Under the pieces are notes generated by a model. That model was not told the origin of the DNA. It saw only the letters and a list, made by a program, of their open reading frames with translations, and did no database searches. A DNA stretch of 64,000 nucleotides from Winogradskyella algicola (GTDB taxonomy: Bacteria > Bacteroidota > Bacteroidia > Flavobacteriales > Flavobacteriaceae), in contig NZ_SZQF01000001.1 in assembly GCF_005869935.1 (NCBI RefSeq), positions 682,001 through 746,000 of the forward strand, given 5' to 3'. Each line of letters starts with the position of its first letter. The stretch's first letter is position 1. Shown one piece after another: positions 11,309 through 14,198 of the stretch. Position numbers and translations under genes: made by a program.

Positions 11309-12565
11309 ATGATTTTAGAAATGAAAGTGCCTTCGCCAGGCGAATCAATTACTGAGGTAGAAATTGCAGAGTGGTTAGTAGAAGATGGAGATTATGTAGA
11401 AAAAGACCAAGCTATTGCAGAGGTTGACAGTGATAAAGCAACATTAGAGTTGCCTGCTGAAGCTAGTGGTACAATTACTTTAAAAGCTGAAGAAGGTGAT
11501 GCTGTTGCCGTTGGGCAAGTAGTTTGCTTAATTGACACTAGCGCAGAACCTAAGGCAGATGCAACAACAACATACAAAGGTGGAGACGAAGGCGGAAATG
11601 ATGACAATGTTGAAGAGAAGTTGGCGAAAGAGCAAGCTGATACAGAAAAATCTGGTGAAAAAGCTCCAAATCCTGCAAAAGAAACATATGCCTCTGGTAC
11701 ACCAAGTCCTGCAGCTAAAAAGATTTTAGACGAAAAGGGAATTGATGCTGGCTCTGTAAAAGGAACTGGTAGAGATGGTCGTATTACTAAAGATGATGCT
11801 GTAAATGCCGTGCCATCTATGGGTACACCAACAGGTGGGAATAGAGGAACATCTCGTAGCAAAATGTCTATGTTACGTCGAAAAGTCGCTGAGCGTTTAG
11901 TAGAGGCTAAAAATACTACTGCTATGTTAACCACATTTAACGAGGTTGATATGTCTCCAATTTTTGATTTGCGTAAGCAATACAAGGAAGACTTTAAGGC
12001 TAAGCATGGAGTAGGTTTAGGCTTTATGAGTTTCTTTACTTTAGCTGTAGTGAGAGCACTAAAAATGTATCCTGCTGTAAACTCCATGATTGATGGTAAA
12101 GAAATGATTTCTTATGATTTCTGCGACATAAGCATTGCTGTTTCTGGACCAAAAGGTTTAATGGTGCCAGTAATTAGAAATGCTGAAAACTTAACCTTTA
12201 GAGGTGTAGAGTCTGAAGTAAAACGCTTGGCATTAAGAGCCAGAGATGGTCAGATTACTATTGATGAAATGACAGGTGGCACATTCACAATTTCTAACGG
12301 TGGTGTATTTGGTAGTATGCTATCTACTCCAATTATCAACCCTCCACAAAGTGGTATATTAGGAATGCACAACATTGTAGAGCGTCCTGTAGCAATAGAT
12401 GGAAAGGTTGAAATTAGACCTATCATGTACGTGGCCTTATCCTATGATCATAGAATTATTGATGGAAAAGAATCTGTTGGATTCCTAGTAGCTGTTAAAG
12501 AAGCATTAGAAAATCCTACAGAATTATTAATGGATAATGATCCAAAGAAAGCTTTAGAAATGTAG
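11309..12565 (+). CDS. sucB: Dihydrolipoyllysine succinyltransferase, E2 of 2-oxoglutarate dehydrogenase
   Basis: 418 residues. One lipoyl domain (1-78) has the attachment lysine K43 in [10 protein letters not shown], followed by an acidic linker. The peripheral-subunit-binding domain is at about 132-165 ([13 protein letters not shown]...[10 protein letters not shown]). The catalytic domain carries [11 protein letters not shown] (His381, Asp385). It transfers succinyl from lipoamide to CoA. It directly follows sucA, and a bidirectional hairpin terminator begins about 20 bp after the stop. Confidence 0.98.
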
Positions 12566-12586: not shown

Positions 12587-12622
12587 AAAAAAGCGCAATT
12601 AATTACTAATTGCGCTTTTTTT
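12587..12622. terminator. Bidirectional terminator between sucB and a small minus-strand ORF
   Basis: AAGCGCAATTA and TAATTGCGCTT form an 11-bp stem with a short loop, flanked by an A-run on the left and a T-run on the right. It therefore works as an intrinsic terminator for sucB (plus) and for the small ORF ending at 12655 (minus). Confidence 0.85.
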
Positions 12623-12654: not shown

Positions 12655-12768
12655 TTAATTAAAAAAATTAACAGCTATATTCGCTGAGATAACGATAACA
12701 GAACTTACAATTAATAGAACCATAAAAATTTTATCCCTTCTTGTCGTATTGTCTTTCATTGTTTCCAT
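12655..12768 (-). CDS. Small single-span membrane peptide (37 aa)
   Basis: A short ORF from ATG 12768 with a charged, lysine/arginine-rich start (METMKDNTTRRDK), then one continuous hydrophobic span (IFMVLLIVSSVIVISANI), then AVNFFN. That architecture is typical of real small membrane proteins and unlikely by chance in AT-rich spacer. It sits between the second small-RNA terminator (12784-12822) and the shared terminator at 12587-12622, on the same strand as the response regulator. Function unknown. It could be translated from read-through of the small-RNA promoter or from its own start. Confidence 0.55.
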   Translation of the reverse strand: METMKDNTTRRDKIFMVLLIVSSVIVISANIAVNFFN

Positions 12769-12783
12769 GATGTTTCATTTTTT

Positions 12784-12822
12784 AAAAAAGCTCTGAACTT
12801 TAAGTTCGGCCCAGAGCTTTTT
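12784..12822. terminator. Terminator of small RNA B
   Basis: AAAAAAGCTCTG (12784-12795) pairs with CAGAGCTTTTT (12812-12822). T-runs exist on both strands, but the relevant direction is minus, where six T follow the stem. The loop carries AACTT-T-AAGTT. Confidence 0.7.
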
Positions 12823-12849
12823 GAGAATATAATCTGAGGCATTGATTAA
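12784..12849 (-). ncRNA. Candidate small RNA B, downstream twin
   Basis: About 66 nt running from just after the promoter-like repeat at 12856-12912 to an intrinsic terminator. On the minus strand the 3' end is AGCTCTG-loop-CAGAGCT followed by six T. The body begins AAGCTATTAATCAATGCC and resembles the twin locus (AGCTATTAAT, then GATTAT). No ORF of note lies inside. The transcription start is inferred from where the two repeats stop being identical; expression is not shown. Confidence 0.55.
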
Positions 12850-12855
12850 TAGCTT

Positions 12856-12912
12856 TGTAAAATTCCGAATAATTTTAATGCAATACTATACGTAACTTTA
12901 CGTATTTTTTGA
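12856..12912 (-). promoter_or_regulatory. 57-bp direct repeat, copy 1: operator plus promoter of small RNA B
   Basis: Identical over 57 bp to 13011-13067. On the minus strand it begins with a perfect 18-bp palindrome ATACGTAA-ag-TTACGTAT (12888-12905), continues through AGTATTGCATTAAAATTATT, and ends at TTTTACA, after which the copies diverge. The layout (dimer site about 35 bp upstream of a TTTACA box) looks like an activator-controlled promoter. The nearby LuxR-family response regulator is the obvious candidate binder, by inference. Confidence 0.65.
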
Positions 12913-12922
12913 GTTTTTTTAT

Positions 12923-12954
12923 AAAAAAAAGAGCCTTGGAAGACTCCAAGGCTC
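12923..12954 (-). terminator. Terminator of small RNA A
   Basis: Perfect 10-bp stem GAGCCTTGGA / TCCAAGGCTC with a 4-nt loop, followed on the minus strand by eight T (A-run 12923-12930 on plus). There is no T-run on the plus side, so it acts only on the minus strand. Confidence 0.85.
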
Positions 12955-13004
12955 AAATAATCCCCTAAGAACTAATTAATAGCTCGTTATTAACCCTTAA
13001 TTAA
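12923..13004 (-). ncRNA. Candidate small RNA A, upstream twin
   Basis: About 80 nt between the promoter-like repeat at 13011-13067 and the strong minus-strand terminator at 12923-12954. The 5' part can fold as GTTATTAA-loop-TTAATAAC (8-bp stem). It is followed by an unpaired GAGCTATTAATTAGTTCTTA stretch that shares AGCTATTAAT and GATTAT with twin B, then the terminator. No credible ORF. The 5' end is inferred. Read-through from the response-regulator gene, which ends only 6 bp before the repeat, could also produce it. Confidence 0.6.
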
Positions 13005-13010
13005 TAACAG

Positions 13011-13067
13011 TGTAAAATTCCGAATAATTTTAATGCAATACTATACGTAACTTTACGTATTTTTTGA
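13011..13067 (-). promoter_or_regulatory. 57-bp direct repeat, copy 2: operator plus promoter of small RNA A
   Basis: Second identical copy of the repeat, offset by 155 bp. Its 18-bp palindrome is at 13043-13060. It begins 6 bp after the response-regulator stop codon on the same strand, so regulator and target promoter are directly adjacent. No terminator separates them. Confidence 0.65.
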
Positions 13068-13073
13068 AAAATT

Positions 13074-13697
13074 TTAGAGATAATCAGAATTTTCTTTTGC
13101 CCAAATAAGAAGACTGTTCTGTTTGCTAGGTAATTTTAATTTTTTAATGATATTGCTCTTGTGCTTTTCTATAGTTCTTGCTGATACAAAAAGTAAATCT
13201 GCAATTTCAACACCAGTTTTATTCTGTGCTATAAGACCAACGATTTTGGTTTCGGTTTTTGTTAAAAGTCTTAGTTCCTTAGGAGATTCATCAACTTCTA
13301 TATAATCTAAAAGTTCAGGGCTAAAATAAGACTTGTCTTTAATTACCGAAGCAATGCAATTTTCTATTTCGTCTAGTGCAAACTCTTTTAATACATAACC
13401 GTAAACACCAAAAGATTTGGCTGCGCTATATATTTTTTCTTCTTTTTCAAAAGTAATAAGGACTATTTTTGTTTTAAGGTTTGCCTTTTGACACTTTTCT
13501 GCAATCTGTAAACCATTAAAGAAAGGCATTTTAATATCTAGAATTGCAATATCCGGCACATGAGCTTTTATTAATGACAAAGCTTCTTTACCATTTTTTG
13601 CACTGGCAAGAACGTTATATTCTTTCTCGTGTAAAAAATCTTGAAGACCTTTTAGTACCAAAGGATGGTCATCTGCTATAATGATGGTAGGGCTCAT
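13074..13697 (-). CDS. LuxR/NarL-family response regulator, orphan
   Basis: Two-domain regulator (207 aa from ATG 13697; an upstream in-frame ATG at 13712 would add MINSL). The receiver domain has the acidic pair in IIIADDHPL, the phospho-acceptor Asp54 in AILDIKMPFFNG, Thr in VLITFEK and the conserved Lys in YVLKEF. The C-terminal LuxR HTH spans about residues 143-205 (LTKTETKIVGLIAQNKTG, then IADLLFVSARTIEKHKSNI). No histidine kinase is adjacent. Its 3' end abuts two promoter-like repeats with palindromes of the size such dimers bind, which suggests local targets. Confidence 0.93.
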   Translation of the reverse strand: MSPTIIIADDHPLVLKGLQDFLHEKEYNVLASAKNGKEALSLIKAHVPDIAILDIKMPFFNGLQIAEKCQKANLKTKIVLITFEKEEKIYSAAKSFGVYGYVLKEFALDEIENCIASVIKDKSYFSPELLDYIEVDESPKELRLLTKTETKIVGLIAQNKTGVEIADLLFVSARTIEKHKSNIIKKLKLPSKQNSLLIWAKENSDYL

Positions 13698-13745: not shown

Positions 13746-14198
13746 TTAAGAAATTTCTTTAAGTTTTAAATAGAGGTATTTTTTGTCATAATCGATAATG
13801 GCCTTTCCCTTTTTTAAAATATCTGCACCAATGATACCATCTACAGGATCTGCATTATGATTAATTAGACCGTTGTTTACATGTGAAAGATTAAAAAGAA
13901 TCAAAGCGACTCTGTTTTTTTTCCATTTACCAATTTTTAAGTTGTTAGAATTAGAAATTTGAGTAGTCATATTAGAAGCACCAGCTCCAACAGCTTTAAT
14001 TTCGGAATCTTTTACTCTAAGGTTAAATCTTTCTATGGCTTCAAAACCTACGCAGCTACTTGAAGCACCAGTGTCTAAAATAAAACGCCCTTTAACTCCA
14101 TTTACAGTAGCCTTTATTTCAAAGTGATTGGTCTTAGTCAATTTGAGTTTTATCTTAGAGTAACCTTTGCCTTCTAGAAAGTCTTTTAACGTTTCCAT
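13746..14198 (-). CDS. Retropepsin-like aspartic protease family protein
   Basis: 150 residues with one aspartic-protease half: FILDTGASSSCVG (Asp42-Thr-Gly) and the downstream DGIIGADIL hydrophobic-Gly element that caps the active site in clan AA proteases. There is no signal peptide or membrane span, so it is cytosolic. Such single-half proteases act as homodimers. It is transcribed in the same direction as the response regulator, ending 33 bp before that gene's longer start, so the two may share a transcript. Substrate unknown. Confidence 0.85.
   Translation of the reverse strand: METLKDFLEGKGYSKIKLKLTKTNHFEIKATVNGVKGRFILDTGASSSCVGFEAIERFNLRVKDSEIKAVGAGASNMTTQISNSNNLKIGKWKKNRVALILFNLSHVNNGLINHNADPVDGIIGADILKKGKAIIDYDKKYLYLKLKEIS

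Follow-up and report, generated by a model that had tools for sequence, protein, structure and literature searches.

The locus described here lies on the minus strand of a 64,000-nucleotide stretch of the Winogradskyella algicola genome, hereafter the window (contig NZ_SZQF01000001.1, positions 682,001 to 746,000). Read along that strand, it comprises a regulator gene, a putative promoter with a first palindrome, unit 1 with its terminator, a putative promoter with a second palindrome, unit 2 with its stem, an open reading frame (ORF) of 37 amino acids and an inverted repeat, followed on the opposite strand by a gene that we take to be odhB. The individual features, in window coordinates, are as follows.

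13746..14198, minus strand: aspartyl-protease-like protein upstream of the regulator, a conserved neighbourhood (Pfam Asp_protease_2)
13074..13697, minus strand: NarL/LuxR-type response regulator with receiver and GerE domains, first gene of the module (Pfam Response_reg 3.6e-25, GerE 3.1e-12)
13011..13067, minus strand: promoter repeat copy 1 (direct-repeat search and reading)
13044..13059, minus strand: palindrome 1, TACGTAAAGTTACGTA, probable operator (spacing and correspondence with the regulator)
12923..13008, minus strand: unit 1, candidate small RNA with a predicted start (conservation and folding); family core GCTATTAATTAGTTCTTAGGG at 12963-12983
12931..12954, minus strand: intrinsic terminator of unit 1 (terminator scan; paired changes)
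12856..12912, minus strand: promoter repeat copy 2 (direct-repeat search and reading)
12889..12904, minus strand: palindrome 2, probable operator (sequence)
12784..12852, minus strand: unit 2, diverged small-RNA paralogue with a terminator-like stem and a predicted start, most likely the attenuated 5' leader of the small ORF
12655..12768, minus strand: 37-aa ORF, one hydrophobic helix, METMKDNTTRRDKIFMVLLIVSSVIVISANIAVNFFN (dN/dS 0.15; unannotated)
12591..12622, no strand assigned: inverted repeat, probable shared terminator of the small ORF and odhB (read in the sequence; similar layout in relatives)
11309..12565, plus strand: presumed odhB (2-oxoglutarate dehydrogenase E2), the convergent neighbour that marks the locus (conserved neighbour)

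The phmmer matches of the window regulator include NarL, DesR and VraR chains. No kinase was seen among its neighbouring ORFs in the window when these were checked by eye.

The array and its conservation in Winogradskyella

A sequence-only reading of the window had described two exact 57-bp direct repeats (12856-12912 and 13011-13067) beginning 6 bp after the regulator. Both details are correct: 6 bp separate the stop codon (13074-13076) from the first repeat, and the pair lies inside a longer 87-nt direct repeat (12842-12928 and 12997-13083) that is 87% identical. The shared AGCTATTAAT and GATTAT are likewise present in both bodies. Two strong terminators had also been proposed. The terminator scan flags that of unit 1, with two overlapping hits at 12931-12954 on the minus strand against 0.2 expected, but the long-looped stem of unit 2 (12784-12822) goes unflagged; it nevertheless folds, and the folding z-scores are -3.7 for unit 1 and -3.6 for unit 2, with 0 of 200 shuffles as good for either. 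That reading had missed the small ORF that follows unit 2 (12655-12768).

The module is conserved and syntenic within the genus. Its regulator is 62-92% identical in 17 named loci, all from Winogradskyella, and two other matches are weak and partial. A DNA search returned some match in 35 of 36 genomes of the same genus, the one in genome G027 being spurious. By inspection, the palindrome and the unit-1 core are found together in 31 of the 36, and the small ORF is found in 34 (33 by motif and G006, locus L033, by eye). In three genomes (G007, G020, G024) the regulator orthologue and unit 1 are both missing, and what is kept is one palindrome, a leader and the ORF; no array element was found in G021 or in G027, the latter genome being 85% complete. 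Other genomes vary the layout, with three units in G012 (L070), a second unit 1 whose palindrome has decayed in G009 (L076) and an insertion between the units in G001 (L049, L072). Since the same array stands behind the orthologous regulator in most of the examined Winogradskyella genomes, a check that the sequence-only reading had itself proposed, it is not a product of chance, and it is found in other genera as well. The exact 57-bp identity is limited to the nearest relatives of the window: when the 54 nt counted from the palindrome are compared, identity between the copies is 89-94% in five loci (L017-L020, L047), against 61-81% in the remaining 33.

Dispersed palindromes in the same genome might suggest that the repeats are a mobile or intergenic element without a regulatory role, for a TACGTA palindrome with adjacent TTGACTTGTT or TAGACTTGTT does recur there. 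However, throughout most of the genus the array is found at a single locus, in the same position, order and spacing, and the core is linked to regulators across many genera; set against this synteny, such an origin is close to refuted.

Two further observations concern individual loci. In three loci from species without the orthologous regulator (L080, L081, L082, at about 2110-2140), the best paralogue shows 41-43% identity and carries TACGTA-N4-TACGTA a few bases past its stop; in L082 the gene next after this motif is leucine-rich-repeat-like. Positions 1430-1477 of L074 are a contig end with apparent sequencing-adapter letters, as we take them to be, and thus an assembly artefact.

Unit 1 and a core found across Flavobacteriaceae

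Unit 1 holds no ORF of 50 aa or more. It is predicted to fold into hairpin 1 (GUUAUUAA/UUAAUAAC, with an AAGGG loop), hairpin 2 (GAGCUA/UAGUUC), a single-stranded UUAGGGGAUUAUU and the terminator, and its loops carry (U)AGGG(G). The first 50 nt are near-invariant in the 27 sequences of clade 1, where 7 of 26 pairs show at least one two-sided change, all of them in the terminator. For hairpins 1 and 2 these 27 sequences give no covariation, their letters being invariant bar a few unpaired or one-sided changes. The 11 sequences of clade 2 keep hairpin 1, hairpin 2, UUAGGG and the terminator with different stem letters, and in one of them (L036) the best fold pairs hairpin 1 differently. Unit 1 looks like a real, conserved small RNA. 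At the gathering thresholds of Rfam 15 the window gives only a tRNA and eight related loci give no match; sub-threshold matches (tsr26, RsaF, FopS and others) were taken as noise. No report of this RNA, by name or by its motif letters, was found in the open-access literature, and as far as that literature and Rfam were searched it is apparently unnamed.

Beyond the genus, the conserved part is a 21-nt core, GCUAUUAAUUARUUCUUAGGG. A strict pattern, requiring the exact core (R as letter 12) and, 24-50 nt away, a TAC...GTAT palindrome, is matched in 80 of 397 Flavobacteriaceae genomes drawn, representing 58 of 237 genera, and is unmatched in the other 317; the reversed control gave 0. Among the 80 is one Winogradskyella genome, G396, where the palindrome match is accidental, since the extra 5' hairpin shifts the spacing in this genus. 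In a draw of 296 genomes from the order, six match the core within one mismatch, all among the 50 Flavobacteriaceae, and none of the 246 genomes of other families does. Nor was the core found within one mismatch in 25 drawn genomes of the large genus g147, presumably Flavobacterium.

Looser searches reach further at the price of noise. A covariance model of unit 1 gave weak hits in 29 of 394 genomes of other genera. Of 27 weak-hit loci read (L089-L115), seven hold the core and L100 holds a diverged form recognized by eye; the remainder look like terminators and were set aside. Some of the covariance-model loci share the common core behind TACGTA palindromes. Allowing up to three mismatches to GCTATTAATTAGTTCTTAGGG gave 130 of 397 family genomes against 33 in the reversed control; among the 30 loci read (L116-L145), five (L118, L122, L134, L135, L144) look like chance and were rejected, and two (L117, L123) have the core with no visible palindrome. 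In view of the control and the chance-like loci, the stricter combination of core and palindrome was relied on. In other genera, too, second copies of the RNA exist whose core has diverged (GCTATTAATTAATTCTTTGAG; L141, L143).

The start of the core is not peculiar to the RNA. The pattern TAnnTTTR-N3-GCTATTAATYA, with at most one mismatch, occurs at ten places in the window's own genome (L149-L158) against one in the reversed control, several of them just upstream of secreted-looking ORFs, so the first nine core letters are not unique to this RNA; the pattern may be a common start-site signature in Winogradskyella. These places, several standing before ORFs, are also what would be expected if the core were conserved as a promoter or initially transcribed DNA element and not as RNA. 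We consider this improbable, because conservation continues through GTTCTTAGGGAGAATTA, which the other genomic places lack, a terminator follows in the sites read, and clade 2 keeps the hairpins with altered letters.

Palindromes and neighbouring regulators

The key part of the repeat is the palindrome TACGTAA-N2-TTACGTA, which is likely a regulator-binding site. NarL-family operators are 7-2-7 inverted repeats of TAC-type heptamers, and the window's 16-bp inverted repeats and the 16-bp TACG palindromes of relatives share this geometry (geometry being all that is compared). The four central letters vary among Winogradskyella species and yet match between both copies in 36 of 38 loci; shuffling the centres, which ignores kinship, gave a mean of 13.4 and a maximum of 25 in 10000 shuffles. 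Such agreement is as expected if both copies answer to one protein, and kinship or recent exchange between the copies could add to it.

For the family as a whole, 104 distinct sites were collected from 96 loci (L159-L254), covering nearly all places of the strict search; the places in G290 and G404 and one of those in G130 were covered by loci read earlier, and one at a contig end in G298 was left out. The palindrome has the form TAC...GTA and precedes the core at exactly 35 nt in 102 of the 104. By half-site, 77 are type A (TACG), 23 type B (TACTC, a 15-bp palindrome), two type C (TACCT) and two other. At 96 sites a loose motif pattern located a LuxR-type helix-turn-helix gene in the same orientation, no more than 700 nt upstream; at eight, including both TACCT-type sites, none was detected within that distance. 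With regulators sorted by C-terminal motif (Pfam analysis covered the window regulator, L129 and L133), half-site corresponds to regulator type: type A goes with a NarL-like response regulator at 73 of the 73 sites where a regulator was found. Type B, with palindrome TACTCAAATTGAGTA, goes with a PAS-LuxR protein at all 22 such sites, and a protein of this kind also accompanies one further site whose palindrome is a variant. Among the convergent genes that could be identified, presumed odhB stands at 51 of 59 A sites and presumed murF at 19 of 20 B sites; Pfam finds Mur-ligase domains at the murF-type neighbour. The order protease, regulator, palindrome, RNA and odhB is common to many Flavobacteriaceae genera. 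Genome G336 (L239) has an A unit adjacent to a B unit, both in front of odhB. A type-B regulator was not found in the window's own genome, where the best match is 34% over residues 164-242.

Distances bear on what the palindrome does. For the PAS-LuxR type the gap from stop codon to palindrome varies widely and the 35-nt spacing to the core stays constant. At the 23 sites lying more than 150 nt from the regulator stop, the 35 nt are kept in 23 of 23; seven of these are later tandem copies. Later tandem copies that each have a palindrome, again at this distance, are seen in L104, L177, L188, L227, L232, L233 and L250. The fixed spacing, with the match of half-site to regulator type, is the main reason for regarding the palindrome as the probable operator of the RNA promoter.

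It might instead be a terminator or other 3'-end element of the regulator gene, given that it follows the regulator stop by 2-5 nt in 43 of 53 near type-A sites, that A and T runs flank type-A palindromes, and that seven of eight further palindromes in the window's own genome lie 4-20 nt past an ORF stop. Yet the distance that is fixed is that to the core, and the distance to the regulator varies; each tandem RNA copy has one palindrome, even behind an RNA terminator; the half-site tracks the regulator type; and the window palindrome has no downstream T run in the direction of transcription. A 3'-end role is therefore very unlikely, and we keep to the operator.

The eight further palindromes (TACGTA with at most one mismatch; L009-L016) are a separate matter. 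Four are flanked by TTGACTTGTT, one by TAGACTTGTT, and some continue with CGAACTTCGCTTATCGGTGGATATAAAT. Because of the TTGACTTGTT and TAGACTTGTT flanks and the position of seven just past ORF stops, they were not counted as a regulon, a reading that was dropped; they are probably a separate dispersed repeat. In three other loci (L195, L199, L243) a third palindrome type with TACCTA-like half-sites precedes the same core, and no LuxR-type gene was found nearby.

Unit 2, the membrane protein and a model of the module

According to the sequence-only reading, a regulatory-RNA gene had been duplicated behind the LuxR-type regulator, with the promoter kept and the bodies partly conserved. This is partly supported, but the units are not equal twins. 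Unit 1 has the family core. Unit 2 has AGCTATTAAT and GATTA in common with that core but not its UUAGGG part, and is followed by a conserved ORF for a small membrane protein. In the window, 15-20 nt separate the unit 2 stem from the ATG. The ORF stands behind the last unit in all 43 genus arrays scanned and is 36-40 aa long in most, with exceptions of 31 aa (L067-L069) and of 47 aa from an earlier ATG (L023, L058). The encoded protein combines a charged N-terminus with one hydrophobic helix; it has no Pfam match at E 0.001. Over a 26-codon block in 34 distinct sequences, mean pS is 0.63 and mean pN 0.11, a pattern that the shifted frames do not have, and mean dN/dS is 0.15 (281 of 561 pairs, those with dS below 1.5). 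The small ORF is under strong purifying selection for its coding sequence. A tblastn search (E 1e-3) of the first locus set found relatives only in Winogradskyella and none at L141 or L143.

Four genomes have no strong stem between promoter and ORF: none was found in L060 (W. wichelsiae), and those in L067-L069 are weak (-4 to -5 kcal/mol). For this reason unit 2 is best read as the leader, with an attenuator-like stem, of a membrane peptide gene. A true twin of unit 1, that is, a stand-alone second small RNA with the ORF made only by rare read-through or from another promoter, is possible but doubtful. The window stem does fold well (z -3.6) and ends in six T, a stem precedes the ORF in most of the 43 arrays, and the diverged-core second copies of L141 and L143 have no relative of the small ORF at E 1e-3. 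However, the T run is broken in L036, L039, L040 and L043 (which end in TTTATA, TTATA or TTA), L060 has no stem and L067-L069 only weak hairpins, the 15-20 nt between stem and ATG leave little room for another promoter, and the selection on the ORF is strong. The unit 2 stem, AGCTCTG/CAGAGCT, is similar to terminators seen in some other genera (L092, L140). Two additions to the leader reading were discarded: an antiterminator seen in the window and in some of 19 folded loci is not conserved, and pairing of the unit 1 UUAGGG with the small-ORF leader is no better than with shuffled leaders (mean p 0.57, 37 loci), which gives no indication that unit 1 acts on unit 2.

The best explanation of the whole, to which we give a probability of about 0.8, is a module of regulator and small RNA with a trans-acting core, in which unit 2 has become a peptide-gene leader in Winogradskyella. 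The NarL-type response regulator, phosphorylated by a kinase, would bind TACGTAA-N2-TTACGTA, whose centre would lie at about -41, 43 nt before the core; the start site is placed just before the core on the basis of a TTTAC box. Bound regulator would activate both units, unit 1 giving an RNA of 65-90 nt that ends at its own terminator. Acting in trans, this RNA would use its near-invariant 5' core and its exposed UAGGG(G) to pair with mRNA or to bind a protein. The PAS-LuxR regulator, usually beside the presumed murF, has its own palindrome and its own copy of the core, so that different signals would converge on one core. A tandem duplication of the RNA gene probably took place in Winogradskyella; copy 1 would have kept the core and gained a 5' hairpin, and copy 2 would have lost UUAGGG and become, through read-through into the ORF, the leader of the 37-aa membrane protein, so that the regulator would drive an RNA and a membrane peptide in parallel. 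We also lean towards a broader picture, a family-wide RNA hub that would merge several signals, in which each LuxR-type regulator would read its own signal and, through its own operator, direct a neighbouring copy of one nearly invariant 21-28-nt core at a shared target or protein, the Winogradskyella copy having been rebuilt as a micropeptide leader with possible feedback on the sensor.

The arrangement recalls GacA-RsmX/Y/Z and LuxO-Qrr, in which one response regulator (GacA is of NarL type) drives several sister small RNAs via a shared promoter site. In Rsm/Csr antagonist RNAs, GGA motifs in loops bind CsrA/RsmA, and the exposed G-rich loops predicted here resemble them. The difference is that those systems have one regulator and several RNAs, whereas here different regulators each have a neighbouring core copy with a regulator-specific palindrome. 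Within the phylum of the window, FopS and GibS are multicopy small RNAs of Bacteroides; FopS shows bands of about 65 and 70 nt, its 5' segment pairs with mRNA starts (positions 1-21 were used for target prediction), and its genes have canonical promoters, with no neighbouring regulator mentioned in the available part of the article (PMC11697453). The likeness lies in the multiple copies and the short predicted length; here each copy stands behind its own LuxR-type regulator. With the FopS model (Rfam RF04319), unit 1 reaches 20.1 bits (E 1.2), below the threshold of 56. Closer in taxonomy is Rfp18 of Flavobacterium psychrophilum, which has a strong predicted structure with a named third stem-loop, is widely conserved in its genus and on deletion lowers two metalloprotease mRNAs; 'LuxR' and 'response regulator' have no occurrence in the main text as available (PMC9723704). 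Compared by description only, it resembles the candidate RNA in being a structured small RNA of Flavobacteriaceae.

Small RNAs of Flavobacteriaceae, a family that is major in sea, soil and fresh water, are little known. A core that barely changes across 58 genera, at a near-constant spacing to a regulator-specific palindrome, offers a handle on a shared layer of control. The 37-aa membrane protein adds a conserved small protein without a Pfam family. That each of two regulators keeps a copy of the core suggests how signals could be merged at the level of the RNA.
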